Positions 15,244 to 49,179 of a stretch of DNA of 64,000 bases are shown here, piece by piece (position 1 is the stretch's first letter; each line of letters begins with the position of its first letter). A program made the position numbers and the translations under genes. The notes beneath the pieces are model-generated. The model worked only from the letters and a program-made list of their open reading frames with translations, ran no database searches and was not told the origin of the DNA. Origin of the DNA: a candidate division KSB1 bacterium (GTDB taxonomy: Bacteria > Zhuqueibacterota > Zhuqueibacteria > JANLFK01 > Oleimicrobiaceae); the NCBI GenBank assembly GCA_024655945.1, contig JANLFK010000002.1, positions 368,610 through 432,609 on the forward strand, in the 5' to 3' direction.

Positions 15244-15299
15244 GACTTTCCCAATCTTTCGTCCATTCCCCGTCGGCGGAGGGGCACCAAGCGGTTTCC

Positions 15300-31203: not shown

Positions 31204-32640
31204 TCAGTGGCGCCTGGTCCAGAGGTAGACCGCAAGATGCTCGTTGGCGAGGATAGACTCCAGATGGCCATCGGCGCTGGCGACTTTGGGCACATAGCCT
31301 TCGACCGCAAACCCTGGCAGGGGGAGTCTTGCCGCCTGGCGACGGAGCGAGCCTTTTCTCCCCACGGCGATGAGCAACGAATCCTCGCCGCTCGCCTCAA
31401 AGTCTGCCTGTGACGGGAACGAAACATCGAAATAGTGCGAGGCCACCCGCTCATAGTCCCATCCCACCATGCTCACGGTTACCGGAAGAGCCGTTCCCCA
31501 GTCCCCCATCACCTTTATCCCATCGCCGAAGCGCGCGCGCAAGGTCACGCCGACTTCTGCTCGGCGTGAGGCCAAATGCTGACTGGGCAAAGTCCACACG
31601 GCCATTGTCACCACAGTCACGGCCACCAGGGAGAGGAGGACGCCGGTGCGCAAGAATCGTCCCCGCACAATGGCGACCCCAATGGGCATGGCCAGCGCCC
31701 AAAAGAGTGGCAGCAGGAAGCAGCCCTTGTCCACGAGAAAGTCGGCACTGACCAGAGGGAGACAAAGGTATGGGGCCGTCGCCAAGGCCAGAGTGAGGAG
31801 CAACTCCCTTCTCTCCCGCAGGCACACCAGCAATCCCTTGAGCAGCAGAAAGAGCAGAACGTTCAGGTTCAGCATCAGAATGCCAACGAGACAAAGGAGC
31901 TTGTAAGGTAACGGCCTCGCCACTGCCTCATGCCCGATTCCCCTGATGAAGGCAAGGGGGGAAGATCCTAGGGCCATGTGCACCGCCAAGTAACCGAGCA
32001 CTGCCAACCCGCCGACCATCGCTGCAAACTTGATGGCCCTCTTGTTCCACCCTCCTAAGAACGCTAGCGGAAATAACAGAGCCGACAGCGGGGAGACAAG
32101 CAGGGCAAGCAACAAGGCCAGCGCAGCCAGGAAGTAGCGCGAGTACAAAAAGAGCAGGGCAAAAAGGAGCACGGCCGCAAGCTGGGGCACATAGACTTCG
32201 CCGATCAAGCTATGGTACCAGATGCTGGGAACAATCCCCGCGACGCAAGCGACGGCCATCGCCTCTCGCTTGCGCAGTCCCAATCGCGTCCACAGCAGGA
32301 AAGTCAAACCCACGATCAGCCCGCCGCATAAGGCGGAAAAGAGCCCGGCAGGCACGATGCTCTCTCTGAGCCAGCCAGGGACGAACTTGTACGCGAGCCA
32401 GAGCAGGACAGTGTGCGCGAGGTGGTAATTTGGCAATGGTGCCCCATGGAGCAAACTCCGGTCGTCAAGGTAAGCATGGTGGACGAGGGGCCGCGGGGCA
32501 ATTGACCTGAGCGCGAAGACAATGACGTCCGAACTGACCGTGCAACTGGGCACCTGCACCGCGTAGAAGATGGCAAAGCCGAGCACGAGGAGAACGAAGA
32601 CTCGCTTGTTGCTCTGCTCGCGCTGGCAAGGCGTGCTCAT
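31204..32640 (-). CDS. Multi-spanning membrane protein, GT-C-like
   Basis: A 478-residue protein with roughly ten hydrophobic helices, a short cytoplasmic start and a soluble C-terminal region of about 100 residues. The general plan (first outside loop after helix 1 with acidic residue, many helices, soluble tail) suits GT-C membrane glycosyltransferases or DUF2723-like proteins, but no diagnostic motif is seen. Start ATG 32640 overlaps the stop of the GH38-like gene (ATGA). It is the last gene of the 26.5 kb polysaccharide block. Confidence 0.6.
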   Translation of the reverse strand: MSTPCQREQSNKRVFVLLVLGFAIFYAVQVPSCTVSSDVIVFALRSIAPRPLVHHAYLDDRSLLHGAPLPNYHLAHTVLLWLAYKFVPGWLRESIVPAGLFSALCGGLIVGLTFLLWTRLGLRKREAMAVACVAGIVPSIWYHSLIGEVYVPQLAAVLLFALLFLYSRYFLAALALLLALLVSPLSALLFPLAFLGGWNKRAIKFAAMVGGLAVLGYLAVHMALGSSPLAFIRGIGHEAVARPLPYKLLCLVGILMLNLNVLLFLLLKGLLVCLRERRELLLTLALATAPYLCLPLVSADFLVDKGCFLLPLFWALAMPIGVAIVRGRFLRTGVLLSLVAVTVVTMAVWTLPSQHLASRRAEVGVTLRARFGDGIKVMGDWGTALPVTVSMVGWDYERVASHYFDVSFPSQADFEASGEDSLLIAVGRKGSLRRQAARLPLPGFAVEGYVPKVASADGHLESILANEHLAVYLWTRRH

Positions 32641-35600
32641 CGCAGAATCACCATTCGCCGGGAATCGGTCCTGTCGCCGTGTTGCAACACACAGAGGTAG
32701 ATGCCGCTGCTCACTGGCTGGCCATGCTCGTCGCGGGCATCCCAGGCAGTGGTGTAGAAACCGGGGGGCAATGGTTTGTCCACCAGCTTTCGCACCATCT
32801 GCCCTTGCAGATTGTATACGGCAAGAAGTGTCGCCTGCAGGTGCAAGGAATCGGTAGGCTCCTCTGGGATCACAAAGAGCGTTTGCAACTGCCCTGCGGC
32901 GGGATTGGGAAAGCACCCACGAATTCCGAAGGTATCTGGAACCGAGGCTTCCACTCTAACCGGAGCGCAGTACCAGGCGCTTCCGTCGCTGCCGAGAGTT
33001 GCGATGCGATAGATTAGCAGCCCCTTGGGCACTGCAAAGTCCCGCCAGGTGTACTCGAGCATGTCGCCCAAGCCCCCTTCTTGCGGTTCGACAAAGGCCA
33101 CATCCTCGTAGCTGCCCCCGCCGATGCTTTTTTCGACTCGAAAGCCTCTGACTTTCGGATCATAGGGCGAGCGCCAGCGCAAGAGGATAGCGTGGCCCTC
33201 CAAGACGGCCTCCAGCCCTTGGGCCGGCAGTAATCCGGAGGGGCTCTCTATGGCGAGACCCAAGGTGAGCAACTGCTGCTGATTGATGGGGCTCACCACT
33301 GAATTGCCGTCGCAGGTGGCTTCGCCGAGCGGTGTCTCTATGTGGCTGAGCCGCAGGGCACGGTTGATGGAGACCCCGCCTAAGGAGAGGCGAAAATCGC
33401 TCGCACGCGCGCCAAGATTCCACACCCGCACCACCAGCTCACCGGCAGGGTTCTCCTCTGCCGGCTTAATGGCCCAGAGGAGGACCTCCGGATTGTCGAT
33501 CTGCACCAGGGAAAAAGTGTCTGCCGGCAAGGCGGAGCCCCCTCCCACTTTTCCTGCCACCAGTGGATTCTGGTGCTCCAAGGCGAAGCGCATGGCCTGC
33601 ACAGGAGAGAAGCCGAAGCGGCCCCGCAAAGCAAACCGCTGCAGAAAGTAGCGGTCGCCTCCTTGGTTAGGGATGCCAATGTCCGGGCCATCCACCTGAC
33701 CGCCGGCCAGCACCGAGATGCGCGGTGTCGCTACGTCCAACCAGTTAGGCCTGCTGTTGCCAAGGCGCATGAAGTAGCAGTCGGCGTTGGAGAACACAAA
33801 GCCGGGTCCGTTGCCCCCCACGTCCGCAAAGTGATTGAGAGTCAACCAGTCGTAGCGGGCCGTGTGCGGCGAGTAATGGCCGCCCTCGGAGGTGAGACGC
33901 GCCAGGATGACCGCACCCACCTCTTCATGCCACACCTCCGCTCCAGGAGGTGTGTAGTCAAAGTCCCAGGTGTAGAGCTCAGAGAAGTTACTGGTAATGG
34001 TGTTTTCGATCTCGATGCGATCGACGTCGCGCGCCAGGGTGACGCGCGTCACATGGGGCAACGGCGTGCCGCAGGTGGCTTTCAGCGTCAGCGAAACCGG
34101 GCCAGCCTCTTCGAGCTCCACGGTACCCGCACCCGGCCCCAAGTTGTTCAGTCCGCCCGCCTGCCCGGCCAGCTCCGGGTTGCCCTGCCGCTTGTCTACC
34201 AGACTGGTAATCGCTCCATTTCCCGCAAGGACCAGGCGATAGGAGTCTGTCTGGGCAGTCCCTCCTTCCACCTGACTCCAGTCAGGGAATTGTCGGCCTT
34301 GGCCAGGACGGACCTCGAGGACGCGGTAGCCAACAGGCGGAACTCCTGAGGCAAGCACGCGCAATGTGGGCTTGCCGGCCATTGTGCTGCGTTGCGCCGG
34401 CAGCTCCTCTCCAGTTGCCACGTCCACGACGACGCAGGGGAAGGGGCCTTCGTAGGGAAGGTCCACGTAATCGGTGCGCAGCCAGCTGAGGGAGTTGAAG
34501 ACGTAGAAGCGCGGGAAAGGCCCTGCGGGAATCATCTCCGCTAAGCGAGTCTTCGCGTCCCGGAAGAGGGACTCGACGTAGGCCTCGATGGCCTGGGCAG
34601 TGCGCCGCTGCCATGCTGCCCGCGCCTCTTTGCTGATGTGCCCGTCGGCGGTCCAGGCATGCTCGAAGTAAAGCCCCATGTTCATCCACGCCAGGTCGCG
34701 CGCCTGCTCCCTGCCGGCCATGAAGGTGGCGTCCCTGGTGACGACCAGGGCGGCCATCGCTTCGGCGGTGCGCAGCTTTTCCACACTGCGCTTCACCCGG
34801 GCCGACACTTCGGCCATGGAGGCGCAATAGAGGTCCCACTCATTGCCGAAGGAGCACGACAGTTGCGGGAGCTGGTCGCCGTAGGTCGCCTCGAAATCTT
34901 CGAAAAAGTCCTGTTCATTGGAGACGATCACCCGCCGATCCGGCCTCGATTTCTCCTTGGCCGCACGCACGAACTCGTCGGTCAGCACCTGGAGCTCGTC
35001 CCAGCCCTTGCCAAACACCCCGATGATGCGGTAAGGGTAGATGCTCTGGAAGTATGGGTCCGCATCGACAAAGTCGATTACGCCGAAGGTGTCGTAGGCC
35101 TCCGCGTAGCCGCCGATACCCTGATTGCCGTGGTAGACCATGGAGTTCCACTTCATGAGGATCTTGCTGCCGTCCTGGCCCACCCACCAGTAGGCTTCGT
35201 GTTCTCTGCCGTAGACGTAGTCGATCTGCGTGAGGCAGGCGCAGACGCCCTTCCACGAGTACTTGGCACCTGCTCCTGCCCACAGGGCACCAAGCCCATA
35301 GGGCAGGGTCTGATTCTCCATGGAGATGGCAATGGGAAAGCGCAGCCGATAGCGTCGCTCCAGAGAGCCGGCGTAGTACATGCTGCGCAGCACCGCCTCG
35401 GCCGGCACACCACCGTAGCAGATGACCAAAGGGTTCAGGGGCACGCCGATATGCCCGCTTCTGATCCGCTGGATCAGCTTGGCGAACTCTGCGGCAGATT
35501 TGTATTTCTCGTAGGTCCACACCCAAAAATTGCCATCGCAATTGAAGCGGCTTTGAAAGTCGCATGGCTCGTTCTCGGTGGCGTCGGCGAGGTCAAGATA

Positions 35601-35756
35601 GTAGTCGAGCATGTCCAAGAAAGCCTGCCGGTAGGTCTCCTCGTCCGCCCGCCACATGTAGTCGGTGTGGTCGTCATTTGCAATGTAGATTCGCTTTTCG
35701 CCCTGTGCAAATCCCAGGGCGGTGAGGCTGAAGAGCACCGTGAAGATGATTCGCAT
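32637..35756 (-). CDS. Secreted GH38-like glycoside hydrolase with type IX sorting domain
   Basis: A 1039-residue protein. A signal peptide (1-18) is followed by a barrel with YIANDDHTDYMWRADEE, resembling the aspartate motif of GH38 alpha-mannosidase-like enzymes, then beta-sandwich domains. A fibronectin-like region precedes the last 80 residues, where FPNPAAGQ, VYNLQGQMVRKL and WDARDEHGQPVSSGIY form a Por-secretion/FlgD-like sorting domain. It is therefore likely exported by a type IX system and could trim the polysaccharide made by this locus, though that is inference. ATG 35756 was chosen for the signal peptide; the upstream extension lacks one. Confidence 0.78.
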   Translation of the reverse strand: MRIIFTVLFSLTALGFAQGEKRIYIANDDHTDYMWRADEETYRQAFLDMLDYYLDLADATENEPCDFQSRFNCDGNFWVWTYEKYKSAAEFAKLIQRIRSGHIGVPLNPLVICYGGVPAEAVLRSMYYAGSLERRYRLRFPIAISMENQTLPYGLGALWAGAGAKYSWKGVCACLTQIDYVYGREHEAYWWVGQDGSKILMKWNSMVYHGNQGIGGYAEAYDTFGVIDFVDADPYFQSIYPYRIIGVFGKGWDELQVLTDEFVRAAKEKSRPDRRVIVSNEQDFFEDFEATYGDQLPQLSCSFGNEWDLYCASMAEVSARVKRSVEKLRTAEAMAALVVTRDATFMAGREQARDLAWMNMGLYFEHAWTADGHISKEARAAWQRRTAQAIEAYVESLFRDAKTRLAEMIPAGPFPRFYVFNSLSWLRTDYVDLPYEGPFPCVVVDVATGEELPAQRSTMAGKPTLRVLASGVPPVGYRVLEVRPGQGRQFPDWSQVEGGTAQTDSYRLVLAGNGAITSLVDKRQGNPELAGQAGGLNNLGPGAGTVELEEAGPVSLTLKATCGTPLPHVTRVTLARDVDRIEIENTITSNFSELYTWDFDYTPPGAEVWHEEVGAVILARLTSEGGHYSPHTARYDWLTLNHFADVGGNGPGFVFSNADCYFMRLGNSRPNWLDVATPRISVLAGGQVDGPDIGIPNQGGDRYFLQRFALRGRFGFSPVQAMRFALEHQNPLVAGKVGGGSALPADTFSLVQIDNPEVLLWAIKPAEENPAGELVVRVWNLGARASDFRLSLGGVSINRALRLSHIETPLGEATCDGNSVVSPINQQQLLTLGLAIESPSGLLPAQGLEAVLEGHAILLRWRSPYDPKVRGFRVEKSIGGGSYEDVAFVEPQEGGLGDMLEYTWRDFAVPKGLLIYRIATLGSDGSAWYCAPVRVEASVPDTFGIRGCFPNPAAGQLQTLFVIPEEPTDSLHLQATLLAVYNLQGQMVRKLVDKPLPPGFYTTAWDARDEHGQPVSSGIYLCVLQHGDRTDSRRMVILR

Positions 35757-35787
35757 GCGCACAATATGACTCCGTGGGTTACATAGC

Positions 35788-36540
35788 TCAAGGCAACGAA
35801 TCGTTGTCAGGGTCGGCCGAAGAACAGGCGAGCACAGGAGGCGCCGCCTTTGCCGCCGGGTCGCTCTGCCCCGCGGTACAAGAGGTAACCACGGGGCGCA
35901 GGCGAAGGGCGCGGTACAGGCATAGGCAGCGGCCAACCAGTGGTGGGAAGCGCAGTTCCTTGTCAATCGCGAAGTACCTCAGCAGGGTCTGGCGCACGCG
36001 CTGCCGGGCATCGCCGAAATCTGCCTCCGGATCCTCGCCGGTGAGGAGCTTGAAGCCAAAGTCGATGGCCGGCGAAGCACCGGGGGTCACCACCACCAGT
36101 GCGCCAGAAGGCTTCAGAACTCTGCGCAACTCCTGGCAAGCACCGACCAGGTCGGGCACGAACTCCAAGGCACTTATGGTCACCAGCAGGTCAAAGGAGG
36201 CATCCCTGAACGGCAGCCTCTCCGCGCTGGCCTGCGCCAGATGCGCTTCCACCTCGTGCTCCCGCAACACGGCCGCGACGGCGCTGGCAAACGGGTGCAC
36301 GTCTGCCCCAAACAGCGAAGTGCTGTGGGAATGCAATTCGGGCATGAACGCGCCACTGCCGTAGCCGATTTCCAGCACGCGGCCGGAGGGCAACGGAGCC
36401 ATCAGGCGACGGCACAGCTTGAACCTCTGCCGCTGCACAAAGCCGAGCAGAGGACGGTAGTTCCAATCTGCATGGTCCACTCTCCCGGTCTTTACCAGTG
36501 AACCGACCGGGAGAAGCTGGAGCCTCCTCATAAGCCTCAT
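35788..36540 (-). CDS. SAM-dependent methyltransferase of the polysaccharide locus
   Basis: A 250-residue class I methyltransferase (Methyltransf_11 style). Motif I is VLEIGYGSGAF, the acidic loop is GADVHPFA, and post-motifs are FDLLVTISALEFV and LKPSGALVVV. ATG 36540 overlaps the GT39-like stop (ATGA), chosen over an in-frame ATG at 36588. A sugar or lipid carrier methylation is plausible from the context. Confidence 0.85.
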   Translation of the reverse strand: MRLMRRLQLLPVGSLVKTGRVDHADWNYRPLLGFVQRQRFKLCRRLMAPLPSGRVLEIGYGSGAFMPELHSHSTSLFGADVHPFASAVAAVLREHEVEAHLAQASAERLPFRDASFDLLVTISALEFVPDLVGACQELRRVLKPSGALVVVTPGASPAIDFGFKLLTGEDPEADFGDARQRVRQTLLRYFAIDKELRFPPLVGRCLCLYRALRLRPVVTSCTAGQSDPAAKAAPPVLACSSADPDNDSLP

Positions 36541-38282
36541 CGCGGGGCCTCCTCCACTGGGGGCGAGGAACTTGCCGAAGAAAGCCACCTGTAGATCTGG
36601 CTGCTGTCACCTGCAAGGGCAAACACCTCCAAGGCACGGTTCTCCGCTACAAGGGGGAAATGCGCTCGCATTTCTGCTTCGAACCCGGCCTTCTCCGCAA
36701 GGGCGTCCCGCTCCGCAACAAAAAAGCGCGCTCCTCGGGATGCGAGGCTTTCCAAGGCAGCAACCGACTGCTCTTCGATAGCGATATTGAATCCTTTGTG
36801 GCCAAGCCAGTAGAAAAGGTACGGGGCATTGATCGCCAAAGGTAGACCGTCTTCGTCGGCGTTGTGGCCACCAGAGGCCACAATCAGATCGCCAGGAGGG
36901 ATAGACGGCTCAACCTCCCGGGCGCACTCGTAGACGGTCCGCATGTGCGAAGGATGGATGTCCTTGGCAATACGGAACCCAGAAAATAGGAAAGACGAGG
37001 CTACAGAAAACACAACCGCCAGTTGGCCCAGGCGGCGCGCCCGCATTCGACCTTCCGCCGTACCCCTGCCTGTGCTGGCAGCGAGTGCGGTAGCTGCTAC
37101 GCCGCCAATCGTGGCGGTGGCGATGGCAGTGGGAATCGTCGGAGGAGAGCCAAGAGCCAGCCGCGCCATCACGACCATCAGAGCCGTGGCGCCAGCCAGA
37201 ACGAGCCCTGCCACTCCTCTGGCCCCGGCCTTGCCGATGGCCATGTCGGCGCCGAGCCCAAAGAGCAGGGCCGCGGGCGGCACGCTGGCGACATGGTAGT
37301 AGATGGCCCACTCCTCGCTGGTCGTCCTACAAGTGGCCACGTAGTACGCCAGGACGGAAAGCATCCACAAAACGGCGACACTCGTGCCTTGCCGGCGTCC
37401 GCGCAGGATGGCATAGGCCCAGGCCAGCCAGCCGAGAGGCATCCAGACGAACAGCAGTTCGATTTTGACAATGCCCACCACGAACCGCGGGTTGGTGAAA
37501 AAGTCCCAGCCAATCCAATGGTACTCGTTGGAAAGCCCCAAGGAGTTGTGGTACGTGAGCCACAAATGGTGCGCATGCAGGTACCAGAGGGCTGCAGGAA
37601 GTACCGCAAGCAAGGCCAACACCCAAACTCGCCAGTTGCGGAGACTGCCGAGCCCCTGGCGCATGAGCAGAAGCGCCGCAAACAGCAGCCCGATGTGCGC
37701 GCTATTGACCTTGGCCAAAAGTGCGCACGCAGTGGTACCTGCGGCAAGCCAGTACCACTGCCAACTCCCCTCCTCCAGCCAACGGATGAACGCGTACACC
37801 GCAGCGATGAGGAAGAAAAGCATCATGGACTCCGGCTGCAGGGAATTGGACACGCGGATAGCCAGAGGACTCAACACGAAAAACGCCAGAGCCAACAGGG
37901 AGGCACGTCCTGCAAGGAGTCTCTTCGCAAGGAGGAAGAAAATCCACAGCGTCCCGATGGAAAACAAGAAAGGAATGATTCTCCCGAGCTGCTCGTGCAA
38001 CCCGAAAGTCTTGTAAAGCAGAGCTATGGCCCAGGAGAGCGCGGGGAATTCCATCTCTGCAAAGCCCGGCCCGTCGCCGCGCCAGTCAATGCGCGGGTAG
38101 AAGATGTTCATCCCCTCCGCATAAAAGTTACGCGCTACCGCGGCGATATCACATTCCCGCCAGGGCTCGCGCACTGTTCCGTCCATCGGGCGCCAAAGGT
38201 CAATGCTCCTCAGCCAGATGGCCACCCCAAAGAGGAGCACGCAGACCCATCCTGCCGAAGTGGTAGGCCGTGGTCTGTTCAT
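36537..38282 (-). CDS. GT39-like membrane glycosyltransferase (ArnT/PMT type)
   Basis: A 581-residue polytopic protein. WRECDIAAVARNFY carries the N-terminal acidic motif of GT39 enzymes (the DxD/E-type residues facing the periplasm), and eleven or so helices follow with a soluble C-terminal part of about 120 residues. These enzymes transfer sugars from polyprenyl-phosphate donors at the periplasmic face. It is coupled by ATGA overlaps to the deacetylase-GT2 fusion upstream and the methyltransferase downstream. Confidence 0.8.
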   Translation of the reverse strand: MNRPRPTTSAGWVCVLLFGVAIWLRSIDLWRPMDGTVREPWRECDIAAVARNFYAEGMNIFYPRIDWRGDGPGFAEMEFPALSWAIALLYKTFGLHEQLGRIIPFLFSIGTLWIFFLLAKRLLAGRASLLALAFFVLSPLAIRVSNSLQPESMMLFFLIAAVYAFIRWLEEGSWQWYWLAAGTTACALLAKVNSAHIGLLFAALLLMRQGLGSLRNWRVWVLALLAVLPAALWYLHAHHLWLTYHNSLGLSNEYHWIGWDFFTNPRFVVGIVKIELLFVWMPLGWLAWAYAILRGRRQGTSVAVLWMLSVLAYYVATCRTTSEEWAIYYHVASVPPAALLFGLGADMAIGKAGARGVAGLVLAGATALMVVMARLALGSPPTIPTAIATATIGGVAATALAASTGRGTAEGRMRARRLGQLAVVFSVASSFLFSGFRIAKDIHPSHMRTVYECAREVEPSIPPGDLIVASGGHNADEDGLPLAINAPYLFYWLGHKGFNIAIEEQSVAALESLASRGARFFVAERDALAEKAGFEAEMRAHFPLVAENRALEVFALAGDSSQIYRWLSSASSSPPVEEAPR

Positions 38283-40033
38283 CCCGGCAGCACCGTTCCG
38301 ACTATGCGAGGTCGCACCCGTGCCTGGAGCGCCGCATCACTCCCCGGGGCAGACCCTGCCACTGCTTTCGATGCCCTTCTTCCCGGGAAGCGAAGCGGCA
38401 GTCTCTGGAGAGCCAAAGCCGTGAGGAGGCCCAGATGTCCGCAGATGGTGCGCAGCACCTTCATCTTCGAGTGGCCAAGCAAACGGCTGTGCAACACGGT
38501 CGGGAACTCCACGATCTTTCCCCCGGCGCGGTCCACTCTCGCCAACAACTCGACAATGCCGATGAAGTTGCCGTGGCCGAGCTGGAGTTGCTCCACGGCC
38601 TTGCGGCGGTAGACGCGACAGCAACTCGAGTAAGTGGCCAACTTGTTGTGGAAGACCAGATGGTAGCCTTTGGACAGATGCTTGGACAGCAAGAGCCTCC
38701 AGCGTGGCACATTGAACACCGCCCCTTGGCGATGGTAGGGTGAGGCGACCACTACATCGACCCCGTCCGTCAGCAGAGGAATCATATGCAGAAGGTCCAG
38801 CGGGTCATAGGTGCAGTCGGCGTCGATGGAACAGACCACATCGGTGGAGGCCGCCTGCACGCCCGTCTGAATGGCTGCTGCCACCCCCTGGTTGCGCTGG
38901 TGACGCAGGATGCGGCAATGCTGGCGATCGCCGAACATCCGGGCAAGCTCGTCGGCAGTTCCGTCGCCACTGGCGTCATCCACAAAGACATATCGGAACC
39001 GATACTTTCCCTGGGCCGCGCGTTCCAGATCGGAAAGCGCATGAGCTAAGTACGAAAGGGAGCTCTTCTCGTTGTAGCACGGAACAATGAGTGTGATCTC
39101 CTCGCCTTTCGGCCGAGCTATAGTCACGGGGAAAGCCTGCTGAACTGGCTCTGCACGGGCAGGAGCCTCCTTCTCCGCGGATGACGCCGGCTCCAGCCTT
39201 AAATACTGACTCACGCTCATAAATTGAGCATTGCGCAGCAGCATCTGCACCTGCTCGGCCATCCGGTCCAGGTTTCGGTACTGCCTGAGATGGGCAAGAA
39301 ATCCGATGTTGTTGATGCGGGGAAGGTCTTCGTCCAGCTCCCACGGGTGGAAGTAGAGCACAAAGGGGTCATCGCTCTCGAACGTCCATTGCTGGAAACC
39401 CCGCAGGGTGAACCAACGTGGCAACTGGCGGAGGTAGTTCCCTCCGGCAATGGGAATGTTGAAGCCCAGCACCCTCGCGGTGGGGGGCGGCAGCTCCCAG
39501 AGCCGCCCCTGGGCGTTCTCGTACAGGTGCAGGCGGCGGAGACTCCTCGCCTCTTGAAGTGTCCACAGGCTGGGACGCATGCTCGCGTCGTAACGGCATC
39601 CTTCTTCGATGAGCACGTCCAGCACCCACCGGTCTGTGGGAGAGAGCCAGCCCAAAGGACAGCGATACCCTAAGACCGGCCCCGCACCGGCAGCCTGCAA
39701 TGCCTGCCGGGCTCGCATGAGATCCTCGCGAAAAGCTTCCGGTGTGAGGCGCCGCACATCCTGTGGCAGGAAACCAGCGCTGGCGATTTCGTGCCCATCC
39801 TCCACCAGGCGGGCAATCAACTCTGGCCTCTGCTGGGCGACCCATCCCAAGGTGAAGAAAGTGGCCTTCACATCGTACTCGGAAAACAACTTCCGCACCT
39901 TCTCCACATTCTGCTCCAGACGCGAAGCGAGGCGGTGCCACTGTCGGCTGCCTATCACGTTGCTGAACACACAGCGATGATAGTAGTCGTGGAGCAGTAC
40001 GGTGACGATGTGGCGACGGTTTCCTATGGTCAT
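38279..40033 (-). CDS. Polysaccharide deacetylase / GT2 glycosyltransferase fusion
   Basis: A 584-residue two-domain protein. Residues about 10-280 form a polysaccharide-deacetylase-like (NodB, DUF3473-type) domain: LLHDYYH, KATFFTLGW, GHEIASAGF, YRCPLGWLSP and FYHPWE-like FHPWELD. Residues 312-540 are a GT-A family 2 transferase with LIVPCYNEK, VDDASGDGT and the DAD metal motif near 404, resembling polyprenyl-phosphate sugar synthases. No GtrA-like membrane helices follow. The fusion puts donor synthesis and deacylation in one chain. ATGA overlaps occur on both sides. Confidence 0.85.
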   Translation of the reverse strand: MTIGNRRHIVTVLLHDYYHRCVFSNVIGSRQWHRLASRLEQNVEKVRKLFSEYDVKATFFTLGWVAQQRPELIARLVEDGHEIASAGFLPQDVRRLTPEAFREDLMRARQALQAAGAGPVLGYRCPLGWLSPTDRWVLDVLIEEGCRYDASMRPSLWTLQEARSLRRLHLYENAQGRLWELPPPTARVLGFNIPIAGGNYLRQLPRWFTLRGFQQWTFESDDPFVLYFHPWELDEDLPRINNIGFLAHLRQYRNLDRMAEQVQMLLRNAQFMSVSQYLRLEPASSAEKEAPARAEPVQQAFPVTIARPKGEEITLIVPCYNEKSSLSYLAHALSDLERAAQGKYRFRYVFVDDASGDGTADELARMFGDRQHCRILRHQRNQGVAAAIQTGVQAASTDVVCSIDADCTYDPLDLLHMIPLLTDGVDVVVASPYHRQGAVFNVPRWRLLLSKHLSKGYHLVFHNKLATYSSCCRVYRRKAVEQLQLGHGNFIGIVELLARVDRAGGKIVEFPTVLHSRLLGHSKMKVLRTICGHLGLLTALALQRLPLRFPGRRASKAVAGSAPGSDAALQARVRPRIVGTVLPG

Positions 40034-41028
40034 TGCGCGTGACCTCCGTTTGCCATCCGCACTACGGGCAACGTCCCACTCCTGGCGATGGAACGGGCAA
40101 ACGTGCCCATGGGGAGCAGCTCAAAACGAGCCGCCAGACGGTCAAGTGCCTCCCCTGCGACCTCAATCTTGTCCTGCCACGGCATCTCCATGGCCGGAAA
40201 GAATGCCAACTCTGGGGCGTCGCCCTTGTCGAGAAAGTCGAGCGGGTGCAGGAGAAAGCTCGGCCGCGTGGCGGTGGTGCGGCACAGGCTCAGCGCAAGT
40301 TCTAGGTAGGTGCGCATGAGCGGCCGGGACCTTCGAGCCAAGTACATGAGATAGCTAAGATGAAACGGAATCCTCAACCCCGGTATCGTCGTCACGGGGA
40401 TCTCCATCAGCCGGTGCCCATTTAGGCCAAGGTAGTGCGCCTCGACGGGCCGCAGACCGTCCCGAAAGGAGCCGAAAAGACCGTCTCGGAGTTGGCGTTC
40501 CTCCTTCTGCAAGGTGCTCTTGCTCAAGAAATAGAGCCGCGCCAGGGGTGCCAGCACCGTGGGCAGAGAGGAGGCATCGTAGAGGTAGCCTGCCTTTGCC
40601 AAGACCTCGATGAGCGCAGCACTCCAGCTGAAACCCGGGCCCCGGAAGCCCTCCGGCGCCGCACCAGTGACCCGGAGCAGTTCCTCGTGGGCCCTCAGCA
40701 CCTCCTGCGTGATTGCCTCGCGCGGATAGCGCTGCAACCACGGCTCGTGGTGGTAGGAGTGATTGCCGAGCTCGTGTCCCTCCTGGACAATCCCCCTGAG
40801 CAGGTCGCCATTTTGGGCCCGCGCCGCATCGACGCCCACAATGAAGAAGGTGATGGGCAGGCCTTTGGCCCGCAAGAAATCGAGGATGCGCGGCACGGCC
40901 ACGTCCAAATAGGAGGGCAACTCCTTCCACCGCGCGTCGCCGCGGGTGCGCATGTAGGACCACTTGTCGTCGAGGTCTAAGGATATGGCCGCAAGCGGCC
41001 TCTGCCCACTGTTGTCGACAGCTGTCAT
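40030..41028 (-). CDS. Polysaccharide deacetylase (NodB-fold)
   Basis: A 332-residue deacetylase. SLDLDDKWS holds the first Asp residues, GNHSYHHEP the His-x3-His zinc site, and GFRGPGFSW the substrate-binding Arg-Pro segment. LLHPLDFL gives the C-terminal His. A long insertion separates it from plain chitin deacetylases and suits ArnD-like lipid-linked sugar deformylases. The stop overlaps the fusion protein start by 4 bases. Confidence 0.85.
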   Translation of the reverse strand: MTAVDNSGQRPLAAISLDLDDKWSYMRTRGDARWKELPSYLDVAVPRILDFLRAKGLPITFFIVGVDAARAQNGDLLRGIVQEGHELGNHSYHHEPWLQRYPREAITQEVLRAHEELLRVTGAAPEGFRGPGFSWSAALIEVLAKAGYLYDASSLPTVLAPLARLYFLSKSTLQKEERQLRDGLFGSFRDGLRPVEAHYLGLNGHRLMEIPVTTIPGLRIPFHLSYLMYLARRSRPLMRTYLELALSLCRTTATRPSFLLHPLDFLDKGDAPELAFFPAMEMPWQDKIEVAGEALDRLAARFELLPMGTFARSIARSGTLPVVRMANGGHAQ

Positions 41029-41040
41029 GGCTATTCCCGA

Positions 41041-42351
41041 CTAAGCCTCGTCCATTAGAAGTTGCGCGGCCTCTTCAGCTTGGCGCACCGCTTCGTTCAC
41101 GTTTAGGGTAGTGTTGACAATCTGCGCGGAATTCACTATGAACACACCAGGCGCCACGGTACACATCGGAGGCGCACTCTCCGAGTAGCGGAGCGTGGGA
41201 AGAGCAAACACGTGCTGCTCCCTGTTCACGCTCCAGCCGACCACGTCTTCCAGGCTCAGCGCCGGATAGACGCGGCAAAGCGCCTCCACGAAGGAGTGCA
41301 GAATCTCTTCCGCAGGCGCCAAGAGCAGGGGGTCATCTGCGCGCACGTACTTGGGCAAATACACCAGAGAGTGGCCGCCAAAAGTGCGCGGATCAACCAG
41401 TGACGACATTTCGATGATCCCGGTGAAGGGGAACCCGCCGTCGGCGATGTTCGTGACGTAGAAACCCGCCAGGGGTTTGCGCAACAGCAAGGCCAAGCAT
41501 ACGATTCCCATGTAAGTGGCTCCGCCCAGTCGTTTAGCCTCCGGGGCAGGGAGCCAGCGACAGGTTTGGACAATAGCTGGATTCGGACTGGTCAGCACTA
41601 CCTTCGCGGTGCGGTGTGTTGCCCCGTTGTCGAACCTGAGGAGGCAATCGCCTGCCGCTTCGAGCTCGACGCGATGCAGACGATGGCCATATTTCACTTT
41701 CACGCCGCGTTCATGCAAGGCACGCACCATGGCCTCTACCACGGTCGCGTACCCCCCGTGCACGTAGCCGAGCTCTTCCCTTTTGGCCCCGGTGCGCCGC
41801 GCGCTGTACAGCCTTGCCATGGTCGCCCAGATGAACGCGGCCGAAGCCGCCCGATATTCCTCACCCAGTTTCGCGCGCAAGAGTGGCACCCAGAAGTGTG
41901 CGCAGGTCCGTTCGCCGCACCAGGTGCGCAGCCACTCGACCGCAGGCAGTCGCTCCAAGCGCTGCCAGTTGCGCGTCCTCGAAGCGTAGAGAATGTTGGC
42001 ACCCAAGCGCAGCTTGTCCAGGAGCGACAAAACCGGCAGCGAGACGAACTCCCGCACGTTGGAGACCGAATACAGCTTCCCGTCAATGAGCAGGCCAGTG
42101 CGGGTCTGCTTCCACACGAGCTGGCCGGACAGCCCCAACTCGCCGAGGAGGGCCTGCAAGCGGCTGTCAGAGGGCAGAACCACGTGGTAGTAGCGGTCCC
42201 ACGACACATGGCCAATGCGGCAGCTCCCCACCAAACCGCCCAGCTCGTTGGCCGCCTCAAACAGGGTGACCTCCGCCCCTGCCCCGGCCAGACGATAGGC
42301 CAAGGTCATACCGAGCATCCCACCGCCGACAATGGCAACCTGCTGTCGCAT
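41041..42351 (-). CDS. FAD-dependent amine-oxidase-like oxidoreductase
   Basis: A 436-residue flavoprotein. The N-terminal dinucleotide motif is VAIVGGGMLGMTLAYRL with the FEAANELGG continuation typical of protoporphyrinogen oxidase / amine oxidase / desaturase-like enzymes. The C-terminal FAD-binding end (VAPGVFIVNSAQI) is present. Members in polysaccharide loci are thought to oxidise or isomerise sugar or polyprenyl groups; the reaction here is unknown. ATG 42351 was chosen; ATG 42369 would overlap the epimerase by 8 bases. Confidence 0.8.
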   Translation of the reverse strand: MRQQVAIVGGGMLGMTLAYRLAGAGAEVTLFEAANELGGLVGSCRIGHVSWDRYYHVVLPSDSRLQALLGELGLSGQLVWKQTRTGLLIDGKLYSVSNVREFVSLPVLSLLDKLRLGANILYASRTRNWQRLERLPAVEWLRTWCGERTCAHFWVPLLRAKLGEEYRAASAAFIWATMARLYSARRTGAKREELGYVHGGYATVVEAMVRALHERGVKVKYGHRLHRVELEAAGDCLLRFDNGATHRTAKVVLTSPNPAIVQTCRWLPAPEAKRLGGATYMGIVCLALLLRKPLAGFYVTNIADGGFPFTGIIEMSSLVDPRTFGGHSLVYLPKYVRADDPLLLAPAEEILHSFVEALCRVYPALSLEDVVGWSVNREQHVFALPTLRYSESAPPMCTVAPGVFIVNSAQIVNTTLNVNEAVRQAEEAAQLLMDEA

Positions 42352-42361
42352 GTGGCTCTCG

Positions 42362-43393
42362 CTACGCAATGGCGTTCAGGCCGCGCATGAGGCGCGCCGG
42401 TACGGAAAGACTTGCCGCAGGCAGATGCAGGACTTCCCGCTGCCAGGCAATTGTGCGGCGCAGGCCTTCTTCCAAAGCAACCTTGGGTCTGTAGCCGAGC
42501 ATCTTTTCCGCCCTACTGACGTCGGGCACGCGCCGCATGACATCTTCGTAAGGCCTGCCGTTGAAGGACGAATAGGGAACGAAGTTGACCGCCAAGGACC
42601 TGCCCACGCCGCAGAGGCGGTGAATCAGGCGTGCCAGCTCGATGATGGCGATTTCCTCCTGCCCGCCAAGGTTGAAGATTTCGCCGTTTGCCTGGTCACG
42701 AAGAATCGCCTGGAGCATGCCATCGACTATGTCGGAAACGTAGGCAAAGGTTCGCGTCTGCATACCGTCGCCATGGATGGTCACCGGCTCCCCCTTCAGA
42801 ATCTGGCTGATGAAAACCGCCTGCGGACCGCCCCACCACGACAAATGATGCCGGGGACCATAAGAGCCAAAGATGCGCAGAACCACCACGGGAATGCCGT
42901 ATTCCTCCTGATAGGCAAAGGCGAGATGTTCGTCAAAGAGCTTGGATACGGCATAGCCCCACCTGGCCACCTTGCTGCTGCCGAACACGCTATCGCTCTC
43001 TTCGTGAAAAGGAAGAGCGGCGTTCTTGCCGTACACGTCTGAGGTAGAGGCGAGGATTACCTTAGCGCCGATCTCGCGTGCCACCTCCAGCACGGAATGC
43101 GTACCCTGGCTGTTGATGAGCAGGGTGTCGATGCTCTTGCCATAGCGCGGGATCTTGAAGGCAGCCAGATGGACAATGACCTCTGCCCCCTTGCAGTAGC
43201 CGCGCAGCGCCATACGGCGGCGCACATCCTCGGGGTAGAAGGCAAAGCGTGGATTGCCGAGCTGGTGCTCGATGTTCTCCATGCGGCCCATGGACAGATT
43301 GTCGATGCCCACCACGCGATGTTGCCCCTCCAACAGAGCGTCGACGAGGTGGGAGCCTAAGAACCCGGCGCATCCGGTCACTGCGATCTTCAT
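42362..43393 (-). CDS. NAD-dependent nucleotide-sugar epimerase/dehydratase (extended SDR)
   Basis: A 343-residue extended short-chain dehydrogenase. TGCAGFLGSHL is the NAD-binding motif, DNLSMGRMEN follows the second strand, and the catalytic YxxxK is in WGYAVSKLFDE with Ser/Thr from LASTSDVYG. It belongs to the UDP-glucose 4-epimerase / dTDP-glucose dehydratase-like group. Exact substrate not readable. It supplies a sugar donor to this locus. Confidence 0.88.
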   Translation of the reverse strand: MKIAVTGCAGFLGSHLVDALLEGQHRVVGIDNLSMGRMENIEHQLGNPRFAFYPEDVRRRMALRGYCKGAEVIVHLAAFKIPRYGKSIDTLLINSQGTHSVLEVAREIGAKVILASTSDVYGKNAALPFHEESDSVFGSSKVARWGYAVSKLFDEHLAFAYQEEYGIPVVVLRIFGSYGPRHHLSWWGGPQAVFISQILKGEPVTIHGDGMQTRTFAYVSDIVDGMLQAILRDQANGEIFNLGGQEEIAIIELARLIHRLCGVGRSLAVNFVPYSSFNGRPYEDVMRRVPDVSRAEKMLGYRPKVALEEGLRRTIAWQREVLHLPAASLSVPARLMRGLNAIA

Positions 43394-43438: not shown

Positions 43439-44644
43439 CTACGCCTTTGCTTCAACTTCCGACATCCCCTTGTTCTGAGCAGATTGGGCGAGGCATTCGT
43501 CTGCAGCGCGCGTTTCGCGGGAAAGGGCGCGCCGGGAACGAACGCCGCTCAGCATCAGTTGCATACGACGGTAGCCGCTGACCAGGGCCTGGACTGAACC
43601 CACGGCCACAGCGCGCACCACGTCTGGACTGCATTCGTACTGGCCCACATAAGTTGCATCCACGCCGCGTTTGCCAGCCAAGCCGAGCTTGAAATGGTAT
43701 CCACCAGGATTTGTCACCGGATCTATGCCGCCAAGGTCGTACCAGCGGCACCCCCGCTCTTTCAGCAGCGCGAGCGCATGCCATTGGACGGCATAGGCGG
43801 CCCGCACTGCCCTGCCCTGTTGGTTGCTGGCGGCAAGGAGCATGATTGCCTTGTCCCCGGTTACCGAAAGTACGGTGCCGGCCACCGTTTGCCCTCCCAC
43901 GCGGCCCAGAACGACGAGCTGCTTCTGCGCGGGTGGTAACGCCTGCTGCATGGCAGCAAACTCGTCGACATCGGTGAAGACCGCGAATTCCTTGCTCCCA
44001 AGCATCTCGCGATACACTTTCGTGAACTCCTCAAAGAGCTCCGAGCCGGTGCCGCTGCTCACCTCCACCGCAAAGCGTCTCTCAGATTGATTGAGTTGAT
44101 TGCGCCATCGCTGCAGCAGGTTGCTCCGCAGTTCTTCAAGAGGCGGCGAAAGATCAAGGAACAGCGTGCGCAGAGGCGGCACCAGGCGAGCCCGATGATA
44201 ACCTTCTTCTTCTAAGACAGCCAGGTAGTGATCCGGCTCGTCGACCGCAGCAAGATTCAGGTTCAGGCGCAGGGTCAGCCCGCGCTCGCACACGAACTCG
44301 TTGCGCAGCCCGCGCACTGCCTGACGAAACGCGTCGAGGCGTTCATCGACTCCGTTGCGCCGAAACAGGGGGCCATAGCGCACATACGCCACGCCCAACC
44401 CAAGGAGTGGTACGCTGAGTAGGCGCGCCTGTGCAGCAGAAACGATTTGGCCGGACCGGTGGAGGAGAAAGTGGGCCAGGTTCTTTTCTCCCCAACGCAC
44501 CGCGCCATAGGCCCATGTCTGATAGACGGTGAGGTCGGCAAGGCCTCCCGCCAACGTGTCCCATTCCCGCTGCGAGAGCCTGGTCACAGCTGAAGAGAAT
44601 CCCCCCTCCAGTTTTCGCTGGTTTGTCATTGTCATAGTCCTCAT
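43439..44644 (-). CDS. FemAB/GNAT-like aminoacyl- or acyltransferase
   Basis: A 401-residue protein of the FemAB type, with two GNAT-like domains: the first with VYQTWAYGAV and LGVAYVRYGPLF, the second with VYREMLGSKEF and WYDLGGIDP. FemX-like enzymes attach amino acids to lipid II, while relatives in exopolysaccharide loci are predicted to acylate sugars (the exosortase-associated FemAB-like proteins). ATG 44644 overlaps the deacetylase stop (ATGA); the long upstream frame is not similar. Confidence 0.82.
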   Translation of the reverse strand: MRTMTMTNQRKLEGGFSSAVTRLSQREWDTLAGGLADLTVYQTWAYGAVRWGEKNLAHFLLHRSGQIVSAAQARLLSVPLLGLGVAYVRYGPLFRRNGVDERLDAFRQAVRGLRNEFVCERGLTLRLNLNLAAVDEPDHYLAVLEEEGYHRARLVPPLRTLFLDLSPPLEELRSNLLQRWRNQLNQSERRFAVEVSSGTGSELFEEFTKVYREMLGSKEFAVFTDVDEFAAMQQALPPAQKQLVVLGRVGGQTVAGTVLSVTGDKAIMLLAASNQQGRAVRAAYAVQWHALALLKERGCRWYDLGGIDPVTNPGGYHFKLGLAGKRGVDATYVGQYECSPDVVRAVAVGSVQALVSGYRRMQLMLSGVRSRRALSRETRAADECLAQSAQNKGMSEVEAKA

Positions 44645-45552
44645 TCGACGGCAGCAGCACAGCGAGAGAGGCGGCGGCGAGGCGACCCTCTCTTCGCCGC
44701 AGCAGCTACGCTCTTGCGTGGCGCCACCACCTTGCCGTTCACCTTCTTGGCGCAGACATATGCCTTGGCGCGCGAGGCTGCCCCCAGCCAGCGGTAACAT
44801 CCCCGCACCTTGAGGAAGAACTCTATCGGCCAATCGCGGGGGTCTGCCTTGACCCTGCCGACGACGAAGCTGCTTTCATCTTGCGGCCGACAGTCCGGGG
44901 AGATGGAGAAACAGCGCGTGTAGCCAGCCTCTTTGGCGGCGGCAAGCACACGTGCGTCATAGTCACCATGGGGGAAGCTCAGCAGGGTCACCGGCCGACC
45001 TGTCTGTTCCTCGAGCACCCGCCGCGACTCCCTCAGCTCTCTCTCCAGTTCCTCCTGCGGCAAAGTGGACAAACAGGGATGGCGCAAGGTGTGGGAGCCC
45101 AGGAGCACCAACTCCTCGTCCAGAGCCCGCAGCTCGGCAAAGCTCATCACCCGCTGACCCTGTTCACCGCAACCCTTGACCATGTCCCAGCCGGCAACAC
45201 GCCCGACAAACGAGGTGGGCACAAACACCGCCGTTGGAATGCCCCGCGCCCGCAGCACAGGCAAGGCCGTGTGCTGGATTTCGGCCAAGGCGTCGTCAAA
45301 GGTGACCGCAAAGCAGCGCCGGCCATGAGGGAGCTTTGTTGTCGCCGCCGGCGGCACCGGCTCGGCCCAGCGCAGAGCCATGTCCATCTGCCGGGCAAAG
45401 GCCGCGGCCCGTGTCTCCGGCACGTCGTGGTAGTACAGCACCACACAGCCCGCCTGCCGAGTTACGCCAACGAGCCTCCCGGCAGCATCGCGCAGCAAGT
45501 CGACAGCCAACACGGCACTGCTGACCAACACCCGGAACAATCGCTTAAGCAT
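44641..45552 (-). CDS. Polysaccharide deacetylase, membrane-anchored
   Basis: A 303-residue NodB-fold deacetylase. A hydrophobic N-terminus anchors it. The catalytic Asp pair is in TFDDALAE, the zinc site in GSHTLRHP and the C-terminal SFPHGDYD gives the usual PxG-like loop. It removes acetyl groups from polymer or lipid-linked sugar. The basic tail (PRKSVAAAAKRGSPRRR) is low complexity. ATG 45552 overlaps the upstream GT2 stop by 8 bases and has GAAAGG upstream. Confidence 0.85.
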   Translation of the reverse strand: MLKRLFRVLVSSAVLAVDLLRDAAGRLVGVTRQAGCVVLYYHDVPETRAAAFARQMDMALRWAEPVPPAATTKLPHGRRCFAVTFDDALAEIQHTALPVLRARGIPTAVFVPTSFVGRVAGWDMVKGCGEQGQRVMSFAELRALDEELVLLGSHTLRHPCLSTLPQEELERELRESRRVLEEQTGRPVTLLSFPHGDYDARVLAAAKEAGYTRCFSISPDCRPQDESSFVVGRVKADPRDWPIEFFLKVRGCYRWLGAASRAKAYVCAKKVNGKVVAPRKSVAAAAKRGSPRRRLSRCAAAVE

Positions 45553-46447
45553 ACTGTGCCTTTCTTCGCAAGAAAGCATAGAGCCGCGCCATCTGCCGGT
45601 TGCGGAGGTGGCTCACAAAGCGCCCATCGACCGGGCGGCGTCTGTGGCGAGCTGCTGCCCAGAGATAGCCACTCAGGCGTACGGTGCTCCCTGCCAACAG
45701 CGGGGACTCGCCAAGGCGGCGCACGAATTTCACCAGCTCGAACAACGGGTGGTACCCCACGGCATAGTCGGCTTCACCTTGATGGAAGCGCGCCGCAAGC
45801 AGTCGGCCCTGTCCCGTGCTGGAGCGCCGGTGGTGCCAGGCCTGCAGTTCTGGAAACGACCTGACCTCCCACCCATGCATCCGAGCCATCTCGCTGGCAA
45901 CGGTGTCCTCATGTGCGTGCGGCAGTGGCAGGTAGCCGCCGATGGCCTCGTAGCATGCACGGCGAAACATCTGGATGGCCCCCGCCACGTAATCGGGACT
46001 GTTGCCGTAGCGAGGCCGAAACACTCCTTTGTCCGCTTCCAAGATAACGCCCCCGGCAATGCCCAATCGCGGCTCACTTCGGAAGAACGCCAAAAGGCGT
46101 TCGTAATAGGTTGGCTCCAGCGTGATGTCCGCGTCGAGTACGCCGACAAAGTCGAACGGCAGCGCCCGCAGCTCCTCGTAGCCTGCTTCGATGGCGCAAA
46201 CCTTCTGCGCGAACCCGCTTCCTGAGGGCGCGAGGCTGATCAGGCGGAGGAACGAATACCGCCGCGCATTTCTCGCCACCACCTCTCGCGTGCGGTCTGT
46301 GGAGCCGTTGTCCACAATCACCCAGCGCGCCGGAAGAAGGCTCTGCCGGGCGACACTGACGATGGCGCGCTCGATGAAATGCTCTTCGTTGCGCGCCGCG
46401 GTGATCAGCACATACATGCGGTTTCTGTCTCCCAAGGACCTGCCCAT
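45545..46447 (-). CDS. Glycosyltransferase family 2
   Basis: A 300-residue GT-A transferase. ITAARNEEHFI starts the nucleotide-binding domain, VDNGSTDRT follows the third strand, and GVLDADITLEPTYY carries the DxD metal motif; the later HEDTVASEMARMHGW contains an ED acceptor-loop type motif. No membrane helices, so cytoplasmic assembly of the repeat unit is likely. Confidence 0.9.
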   Translation of the reverse strand: MGRSLGDRNRMYVLITAARNEEHFIERAIVSVARQSLLPARWVIVDNGSTDRTREVVARNARRYSFLRLISLAPSGSGFAQKVCAIEAGYEELRALPFDFVGVLDADITLEPTYYERLLAFFRSEPRLGIAGGVILEADKGVFRPRYGNSPDYVAGAIQMFRRACYEAIGGYLPLPHAHEDTVASEMARMHGWEVRSFPELQAWHHRRSSTGQGRLLAARFHQGEADYAVGYHPLFELVKFVRRLGESPLLAGSTVRLSGYLWAAARHRRRPVDGRFVSHLRNRQMARLYAFLRRKAQYA

Positions 46448-47747: not shown

Positions 47748-49179
47748 GTTCGGCCAACTCCTTTTTCTGCCAGAGGCGCAGGTCAACTATGCCTAACTCC
47801 CTGGCACAATAGAGCGCCGCAAGAATCGCCAGCGCCGCAAGCGGGTAGAAGAGGCCCCCGGGCAGGCGACTGGCCGCCCAGACAAGTGTCGTCCCGCCCA
47901 GGAAAAGAGCCACGGTCCCGGCGAGGCGCCGCCCGTGCAGCTGAATAGGCACATACCTCATCCCCACGACGACCAGCAGCAGACCGATGGCAATGTGGGC
48001 CACGTTGTAAACCAGCACTGCCGCGTGCATACCCCACAGCCGGATGAGCCACACATTCAAGCCAATGCTCACCAGGGAGACGCCGCTCACGACTGCTGCC
48101 GATACTCGGGTCTTGCCCCGCAAAAGCAGCAACGACTCGCCAACATACTGCGCGCCGATGCAGGCCACCCCTGGGAGAAGGGCAAACGCCACGCCGAAGG
48201 CTGCACCGTACTCCGCAGGAGCAACTGCGTGGATCAAGTCCCTGAACACAAAAACGATCCCCATGGCAACAAAGCCAAATGCCAAGAACAAGTGAATGAG
48301 CGCCTCGCCGATGAACCACCGCAGTGCCGGCGAATCCAGGACGCCGTACACTGCAGGCTCATAGGCGAGCTGAAACGGCAGAATGAGCGTGATCACGGCA
48401 ATCTGCGCAATCTTGAAGCCAAGCGAGTACACTGCCACTTCCTCCAGGCCAGAAAAGACGCTCATGGCATAGAGGGCGGAACTATCCAGCGCCAGATCTC
48501 CTGACATGGCAAAGATGAGTGGAAATCCGAAGCGCACTAGGCGCCGCATAGTGGCCCGATCCGTTGTCAAGCCTGTGACCCTCGCAATGGCCATGCTCAC
48601 CATAACCCACATGAGGCCGTAGCTCACCACGTAGGCCCACAACACCCCTTTGAGCCCCACATGCAGTTGCAGAAGGAAGAGCACGGTGCTCGACGCAAGC
48701 AGCAGGAAGACAACACCGTTCAAGGCCACGAAGGCACCGCCCATGTTTCTCGCGCGAAAATAGGAAACCGTGAGCATCCACAGTGTCTGGGCCAGAGCCG
48801 CCATGCACACGAGCAGGACGAAGGGGCCTGGCTGGACCGTGTGCAGTACGGCGGCGAACAGCGGCTTGAGCAGAGTCATGGCCACTGCGGTGACGGCAAT
48901 CCCACCGGCCGCCACGAGCGCATAGGCACTGCCGAGCAATCGGCCCAGCTGCCCCTTCTCGGCAAATTCGGCGCAAAAGCGCATGAAGGCAGTACGCACG
49001 CCCAGCCCCATGACGATGCCCAACACCTGCATCGTCAGCAAAAGGGTGGCCAACAGGCCGTACTCCTGCATCGGCAACGTGTGCGTGTAAAGCGGGATGA
49101 GCAAAAAGGCCCCTGCTCGCAGCCCGGCGTTGCCAATGGCGTAGATGACAGTCTCTCTTGCTAAGCCGCGCAGTCTCAT
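47737..49179 (-). CDS. Oligosaccharide flippase (Wzx-like, MATE/MVF fold)
   Basis: A 480-residue polytopic protein with about 14 helices and the PST-family start (AIGNAGLRAGAFLLIPLYTH), followed by the QEYGLLATLL segment characteristic of Wzx flippases. It would flip undecaprenyl-linked units across the inner membrane. ATG 49179 overlaps the DUF354 stop by 4 bases. Confidence 0.9.
   Translation of the reverse strand: MRLRGLARETVIYAIGNAGLRAGAFLLIPLYTHTLPMQEYGLLATLLLTMQVLGIVMGLGVRTAFMRFCAEFAEKGQLGRLLGSAYALVAAGGIAVTAVAMTLLKPLFAAVLHTVQPGPFVLLVCMAALAQTLWMLTVSYFRARNMGGAFVALNGVVFLLLASSTVLFLLQLHVGLKGVLWAYVVSYGLMWVMVSMAIARVTGLTTDRATMRRLVRFGFPLIFAMSGDLALDSSALYAMSVFSGLEEVAVYSLGFKIAQIAVITLILPFQLAYEPAVYGVLDSPALRWFIGEALIHLFLAFGFVAMGIVFVFRDLIHAVAPAEYGAAFGVAFALLPGVACIGAQYVGESLLLLRGKTRVSAAVVSGVSLVSIGLNVWLIRLWGMHAAVLVYNVAHIAIGLLLVVVGMRYVPIQLHGRRLAGTVALFLGGTTLVWAASRLPGGLFYPLAALAILAALYCARELGIVDLRLWQKKELAEHAA

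Follow-up and report, generated by a model that had tools for sequence, protein, structure and literature searches.

A glycosyltransferase fused to a degenerate deacetylase domain recurs in several bacterial phyla and is a candidate for lipid-linked amino-sugar synthesis

What is a deacetylase domain doing inside a glycosyltransferase when an intact deacetylase is encoded by the adjacent gene? This question is raised by a 64,000-nucleotide stretch of the genome of a candidate division KSB1 bacterium (assembly GCA_024655945.1, contig JANLFK010000002.1, positions 368,610 to 432,609 of the forward strand), which we refer to as the window and whose own numbering is used below. The initial annotation of this DNA described three open reading frames joined by ATGA overlaps, encoding a deacetylase, a deacetylase fused to a family 2 glycosyltransferase (GT2), and a GT39 transferase. 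Their coordinates, overlaps and Pfam domains were all confirmed. The deacetylase (DAC1) and the fusion protein (FUS) share a 4-base ATGA overlap, as do FUS and the GT39 protein; in a sister species (G002) the DAC1/FUS overlap is kept and FUS and GT39 are instead parted by a short gap. These genes and the flavoenzyme gene beside them are as follows.

36537-38282, minus strand: GT39-like GT-C membrane glycosyltransferase (PMT_2), 581 amino acids, about 10 transmembrane (TM) segments (Pfam PMT_2, 56 bits; TM count).
38279-40033, minus strand: FUS, a fusion of Polysacc_deac_1, DUF3473 and Glycos_transf_2 domains, 584 amino acids in one unbroken frame (Pfam).
39198-40033, minus strand: putative pseudo-deacetylase half of FUS (CE4/DUF3473, TIGR03006-like), residues ~1-280 (motif loss).
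38390-39110, minus strand: GT2 half of FUS (DPMS/ArnC-like), residues ~310-545, with the motifs SIDADCTYDP and RLLGHSKMK (Pfam, PDB profile search, fold).
40030-41028, minus strand: DAC1, a CE4 deacetylase with intact motifs (SLDLDDKW, HSYHH), 332 amino acids, no TM segment predicted (Pfam Polysacc_deac_1).
41041-42369, minus strand: flavin adenine dinucleotide (FAD) enzyme (PRK07233/Amino_oxidase) with a fold like protoporphyrinogen oxidase (PPOX) and phytoene desaturase (family models, fold).

The N-terminal half of FUS is closest to the XrtA-type deacetylase family TIGR03006, with a score of 230.1 bits that lies below the curated cut-off of 276.2, and the corresponding part of an AlphaFold2 model matches a polysaccharide deacetylase by fold. 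While unfused relatives carry T-V-D-V-E-D as motif 1 and H-G-Y-x-H as motif 2, FUS has T-V-L-L-H-D and A-G-F-L-P; L13 replaces the catalytic Asp, and H15, A86 and P90 replace metal ligands. Of the 49 fused rows in an alignment, which represent 47 distinct genes, none has the catalytic Asp (A, L, V, S, G, T or Q stands there instead) and none has the first His of motif 2, a metal ligand that is mostly replaced by K or R. All 18 unfused DUF3473 proteins in the same alignment retained both residues. The window's genus shows two further changes, H for E at the other metal position in motif 1 and P for the second His, so that all four positions differ there. Most fused proteins retain the second His, the motif-3 Arg and the motif-5 His, and FUS itself retains the motif-3 Arg. 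According to a review of the CE4 fold, these motifs serve catalysis and metal binding, and a CE4 protein that has neither of the histidines and no catalytic Asp or motif-3 Arg is treated as probably inactive (PMC10967932). The initial annotation took the fused half for a deacetylase. Since the catalytic Asp and one metal-binding His are gone in every homologue examined, we conclude instead that this half has a deacetylase fold but probably lacks deacetylase activity.

The fused rows formed one clade with a support of 0.92 in a tree of fused and unfused proteins, suggesting that the residue loss was probably inherited once and that the counts above do not represent independent events. The ratio of nonsynonymous to synonymous substitution rates (dN/dS) was 0.07-0.09 for the CE4 half, as low as the 0.11 of the GT2 half, indicating purifying selection. 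Because the degenerate domain persists at such values, we argue that it has a function. Annotation as a "deacetylase-glycosyltransferase fusion" would mislead, since its deacetylase part is apparently a pseudoenzyme. Extra DUF3473-type domains were observed beside a fused gene in one Acidobacteriota genome (L097, 531-1322 and 4456-4635).

The GT2 half was compared with PDB entries by single-sequence and profile searches. DPMS ranked first (2e-32), followed by ArnC (1e-22) and GtrB (7e-20). DPMS and ArnC aligned over the whole GT2 domain, and most weaker matches covered only part of the profile. The AlphaFold2 model (mean predicted local distance difference test score 75, built from seven sequences) gave the same ranking by fold, and the DADCTYDP (DAD) and RxxGxSK motifs were invariant. 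By sequence and by predicted fold, the GT2 half therefore groups with the polyprenyl-phosphate sugar synthases DPMS, ArnC and GtrB and not with non-polyprenyl transferases, the grouping that the initial annotation had named as speaking against it. These results make polyprenyl phosphate the likely acceptor of the GT2 half.

DAC1 and its orthologues retain DxD and HxxxH, with the catalytic Asp and the metal ligands present (SLDLDD and HSYHH in the window). DAC1 is thus a plausible deacetylating enzyme. The initial annotation had counted it as a second deacetylase; an intact CE4 protein is indeed encoded at 40030, but by its motifs it appears to be the only canonical one of the two. The lack of a predicted TM segment in DAC1 and the presence of at most one weak internal TM stretch in FUS fit action at the cytoplasmic face, as for ArnD. 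The flavoenzyme scored 418 bits against PRK07233 (cut-off 252), and its model resembles protoporphyrinogen oxidase and phytoene desaturase. The NCBIfam name of this family is still hypothetical, and a search of the open-access literature found no paper on PRK07233.

We searched other genomes for the same fusion and its neighbours. Each of the three genomes in the window's genus had it, although it was split over two contigs in one of them (G001), and it occurred in no other of 82 genomes of the window's phylum. Elsewhere, the phylum to which a Gemmatimonadota carrier belongs (346 genomes) had it in 22, and that of a Terriglobia record (297 genomes) in about 17. Two further groups, reached via records named Myxococcota or Deltaproteobacteria, contained it in 2 of 195 and 7 of 188 genomes. 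The fusion is therefore found in at least four phylum-level groups, including Gemmatimonadota, Acidobacteriota and Myxococcota, and is not restricted to one genome, which the initial annotation had named as speaking against it. Since it recurs in a single frame in many genomes, FUS is no assembly artefact.

Neighbours were counted up to 10 kb from each of 48 fused loci, though contig ends cut many of these short. The flavoenzyme (38 of 48) and DAC1 (31 of 48) were the usual companions, followed by WecB (25), AsnB (13), a nucleoside diphosphate (NDP)-sugar dehydrogenase (13) and DegT (11). The flavoenzyme is the most frequent partner across phyla and is tied to the fusion more tightly than GT39, and this neighbourhood points to its family as part of lipid-linked amino-sugar synthesis. 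GT39 had been considered as the most constant partner and was rejected in favour of the flavoenzyme and DAC1. The GT39 protein of the window is nevertheless 65% identical to its homologue in the sister genome and 39-42% identical to those in Acidobacteriota operons with the fusion. In one Acidobacteriota genome (L110) a single operon reads WecB-FUS-DegT-GFO-LbH-FAD-DAC1-UbiA-MT-GT39, where MT is a methyltransferase that precedes GT39 (in the window one follows it); L111 and L112 are close variants. The UbiA proteins of these three operons are of the decaprenyl-phosphate phosphoribosyltransferase type. The one in L110 lies at 15121-16059, and similar proteins occur in fusion operons of Acidobacteriota and of some Gemmatimonadota, which suggests a second lipid-linked sugar. 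In Gemmatimonadota, AsnB and a UDP-ManNAc-dehydrogenase-like protein often come after FUS-FAD-DAC1. The same DPMS-like GT2 was also found in other settings. In a Terriglobia record (L035, 6846-8822) it is fused to WecB (UDP-GlcNAc 2-epimerase, 372 bits) in place of the CE4 half, and in Planctomycetota it stands unfused before DegT-GFO-LbH, with DAC1 present in one case. These alternative fusions suggest that the sugar-nucleotide enzymes supply the GT2 with its substrate.

Which sugar this may be is indicated by the remaining genes of the window's cluster.

35788-36588, minus strand: class I S-adenosylmethionine-dependent methyltransferase after GT39, kept in the sister genome (Pfam, genome comparison).
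42362-43393, minus strand: NAD-dependent sugar epimerase/dehydratase of the short-chain dehydrogenase/reductase (SDR) type (family models).
43439-44833, minus strand: FemAB/GNAT-type N-acyltransferase with a weak XrtA FemAB match (family models).
44641-45579, minus strand: a third CE4 protein, whose gene overlaps the FemAB-like one and whose motifs appear intact by eye (Pfam).
49176-50321: DUF354 protein with weak UDP-GlcNAc 2-epimerase similarity.
50403-51590, minus strand: DegT/DnrJ/EryC1 aminotransferase, WbpE/QdtB-like (family models).
51517-52023, minus strand: LbH N-acetyltransferase, WbpD/WlbB-like (family models).
52020-53027, minus strand: GFO/IDH dehydrogenase, UDP-GlcNAc 3-dehydrogenase/WbpB-like (NF040723, 156 bits against a cut-off of 450).
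32637-35966: large protein with a C-terminal type A sorting domain of the type IX secretion system (T9SS).

Upstream of DAC1 and in the same direction lie, in order, genes for the flavoenzyme, the SDR, FemAB-like, CE4, GT2, Wzy-like, flippase-like and DUF354 proteins, and beyond these for DegT, LbH, GFO/IDH, a polyprenyl glycosylphosphotransferase, and BY-kinase-like and Wzz-like proteins. The cluster is of the exopolysaccharide type, and the sister species (L116) preserves its gene order between about 54 and 33 kb. GFO, DegT and LbH proteins, together with a WecB-type 2-epimerase, are the Wbp enzyme classes that lead to UDP-2,3-diacetamido-2,3-dideoxy-uronic sugars (PMC10622841). In Porphyromonas and Tannerella the Wbp pathway is followed by the putative CE4 deacetylase VimE, the FemAB-like VimA, which matches the XrtA FemAB family, and optionally the amidotransferase WbpS, which is of the AsnB type (PMC7468200). 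Linked WbpB, WbpE and WbpD homologues were found, as family-level matches, at 50403-53027 of the window and in L110-L112. Across genomes, the fusion is accompanied by WecB/WbpI, GFO/WbpB, DegT/WbpE and LbH/WbpD, or by the NDP-sugar dehydrogenase with AsnB/WbpS. The window's cluster also holds an intact CE4 protein and the weakly matching FemAB protein, candidate counterparts of VimE and VimA. Each of the Wbp/Vim enzyme classes is represented here at the level of protein family, and the DUF354 protein could stand in for the WecB that is missing from the cluster. These predicted neighbours point to a Wbp/Vim-type diamino sugar rather than to 4-amino-4-deoxy-L-arabinose (Ara4N).

On the strength of family assignments, gene linkage, motif loss and selection, all read from the sequences, we propose, with a probability of roughly 0.55, that 36537-42369 encodes the late steps in making a lipid-linked, N-deacetylated (di)amino-sugar donor, in which a GT2 that carries a deacetylase-fold module without catalytic function in its own chain makes the donor that a GT-C transferase then uses. 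We infer the substrates, the order of steps, the role of the flavoenzyme and the acceptor as follows. Wbp-type enzymes would first synthesize a UDP-sugar. The GT2 of FUS would then transfer a 2-acetamido or 2,3-diacetamido (uronic) sugar from UDP to polyprenyl phosphate at the cytoplasmic face, while the dead CE4 half would bind the N-acetylated sugar-lipid (or DAC1) and position it. DAC1 would take off an N-acetyl group, in the way that lipid-linked sugars are deprotected by ArnD and NaxD, and the flavoenzyme might modify the sugar or the lipid in a flavin-dependent step. After flipping, GT39 would transfer the sugar to a glycan at the surface or to some other acceptor. The FemAB-type enzyme of the window could add an acyl group back to the freed amine, as proposed for VimA.

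Several observations weigh against this proposal. TM prediction found no C-terminal TM helix pair in any fused protein, unlike in ArnC and GtrB, and soluble relatives of the GT2-half fold (GpgS, MpgS) use the non-lipid acceptor phosphoglycerate. A GT39 homologue was found at only 5 of the 48 fused loci and another GT-C protein at 7 (GT39/GT-C up to 12). There is no WecB within the window, although three are encoded elsewhere in the same genome. Some CE4-fold proteins function with altered active sites, so the fused half may retain some activity. Finally, substrates are not revealed by sequence alone. In a broader version of the proposal, the catalysis-free deacetylase fold would have become a permanent part of a polyprenyl-phosphate sugar synthase, where it would recognize the N-acetylated sugar-lipid and hand it to a separate, active deacetylase and a PPOX-like flavoenzyme. 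The product would be a lipid-linked diamino sugar not described before, by which surface polymers or sorted proteins would be anchored across several phyla. We consider this version speculative and rather unlikely.

We explored ordinary Wzx/Wzy repeat-unit assembly as another explanation. Here the GT2 would add a sugar to an undecaprenyl-diphosphate oligosaccharide, the dead CE4 half would be a glycan-binding module, DAC1 would trim the repeat unit and GT39 would serve another step. In its favour, the cluster holds polyprenyl glycosylphosphotransferase, Wzz, BY-kinase-like, flippase and Wzy-like proteins, the GT2 half has no TM helices, and GT39 is not always adjacent to the fusion. However, the GT2 half is nearest to synthases of polyprenyl-monophosphate sugars, which are the donors that GT39 enzymes use, and GT39 is in the same operon as the fusion in two phyla. 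We regard repeat-unit assembly as unlikely, though a serious possibility.

It is also conceivable that a Wbp/Vim-like product is a linking sugar that ties sorted proteins, delivered by T9SS here and by exosortase in other hosts, to a surface glycolipid; this would be a possible end use of the proposed donor and not its opposite. Wbp-like enzymes, CE4 and FemAB occur in one cluster, and these are the parts of the published Wbp/Vim pathway (PMC7468200). The window's genome encodes the T9SS translocon protein SprA. Together with the sorting domain on the 32637-35966 product, this makes a Vim-like linking sugar possible in this organism. T9SS was nevertheless rejected as a general partner of the fusion, since no SprA match was found in the Acidobacteriota and Myxococcota carriers. 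Strong exosortase matches were present in 19 of 47 genomes with the fusion and in 1 of 33 with unfused proteins (Fisher p = 1e-4, with comparison genomes that were not matched for ancestry), but 28 of the 47 carriers had no strong match. An exosortase/XrtA system in the window's organism was rejected because its genome contains no exosortase. Given also the weak FemAB match, we find the linking-sugar explanation doubtful.

The possibility that the fused CE4 half is an active enzyme with altered chemistry, either metal-independent or catalysing a different hydrolysis, appears improbable. It could account for the second His, motif-3 Arg and motif-5 His that most fused proteins keep, for the non-random replacement of the first His, mostly by Lys or Arg, and for the purifying selection. 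Against it, no fused protein has kept the catalytic Asp, all three metal-ligand positions (H15, A86 and P90) are changed in the window's genus, and an intact CE4 enzyme is encoded next door. A true Arn pathway placing aminoarabinose on lipid A shares the three fold classes but is hardly credible, since the neighbours fit diamino sugars, FUS and DAC1 score far below the cut-offs for ArnC (PRK10714, 62 of 529 bits) and ArnD (PRK15394, 16.6 of 382 bits), no ArnT match was found, and ArnA and ArnB are not matched in the cluster (SDR, 104 of 777 bits; aminotransferase, 239 of 631 bits).

What survives of the Arn-like module in the initial annotation is thus its logic of GT2 synthase, deacetylase and GT39, consistent with the placement of the GT2 half near DPMS, ArnC and GtrB and with GT39 in the same Acidobacteriota operon; membership in the Arn system was rejected. 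The theme of making, deprotecting and transferring a polyprenyl-linked amino sugar is already known from Arn and NaxD. The claimed new system is better seen as a variant of the GT2/deacetylase/GT-C theme. Our search of the open-access literature, including DUF3473 with deacetylase and glycosyltransferase, found no description of a pseudo-CE4-GT2 fusion. ArnC-ArnD-ArnT likewise combines a GT2 polyprenyl-phosphate sugar synthase, cytoplasmic CE4-type deprotection and a GT-C transferase, but has no fusion, whereas the genes described here include Wbp-type rather than Ara4N genes and add a flavoenzyme and a dead CE4 half to the set. In the NaxD route of Francisella and Acinetobacter, an N-acetylhexosamine is also deacetylated on undecaprenyl phosphate before transfer (undecaprenyl-P-GalNAc to -GalN); NaxD is an unfused YdjC-family protein, and the route as described has no flavoenzyme or Wbp genes (PMC11279074). 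The XrtA/PEP-CTERM exopolysaccharide deacetylase (TIGR03006/DUF3473) is related in sequence to the N-terminal half of FUS, which differs in its score below the cut-off, its lost catalytic residues, its fusion to GT2 and its exosortase-free genome. The MatB-type fusion of Streptomyces also joins an N-terminal NodB-like CE4 domain to a C-terminal GT2 in one chain, but the GT2 of MatB is a PgaC-like polymer synthase, whereas that of FUS is DPMS-like and its CE4 domain is degenerate (PMC4391728). The Wbp/Vim pathway of Porphyromonas and Tannerella shares WbpB/E/D-like enzymes, the optional WbpI epimerase and WbpS/AsnB, a CE4 protein (VimE) and a FemAB-like protein (VimA), and its published description includes neither a pseudo-CE4-GT2 fusion nor a PPOX-like flavoenzyme (PMC7468200). 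What a specialist would not have expected is the conserved pseudo-deacetylase and a flavoenzyme so often found with the fusion, and a widespread, apparently undescribed fusion is now tied to a definite gene module with concrete candidate substrates.

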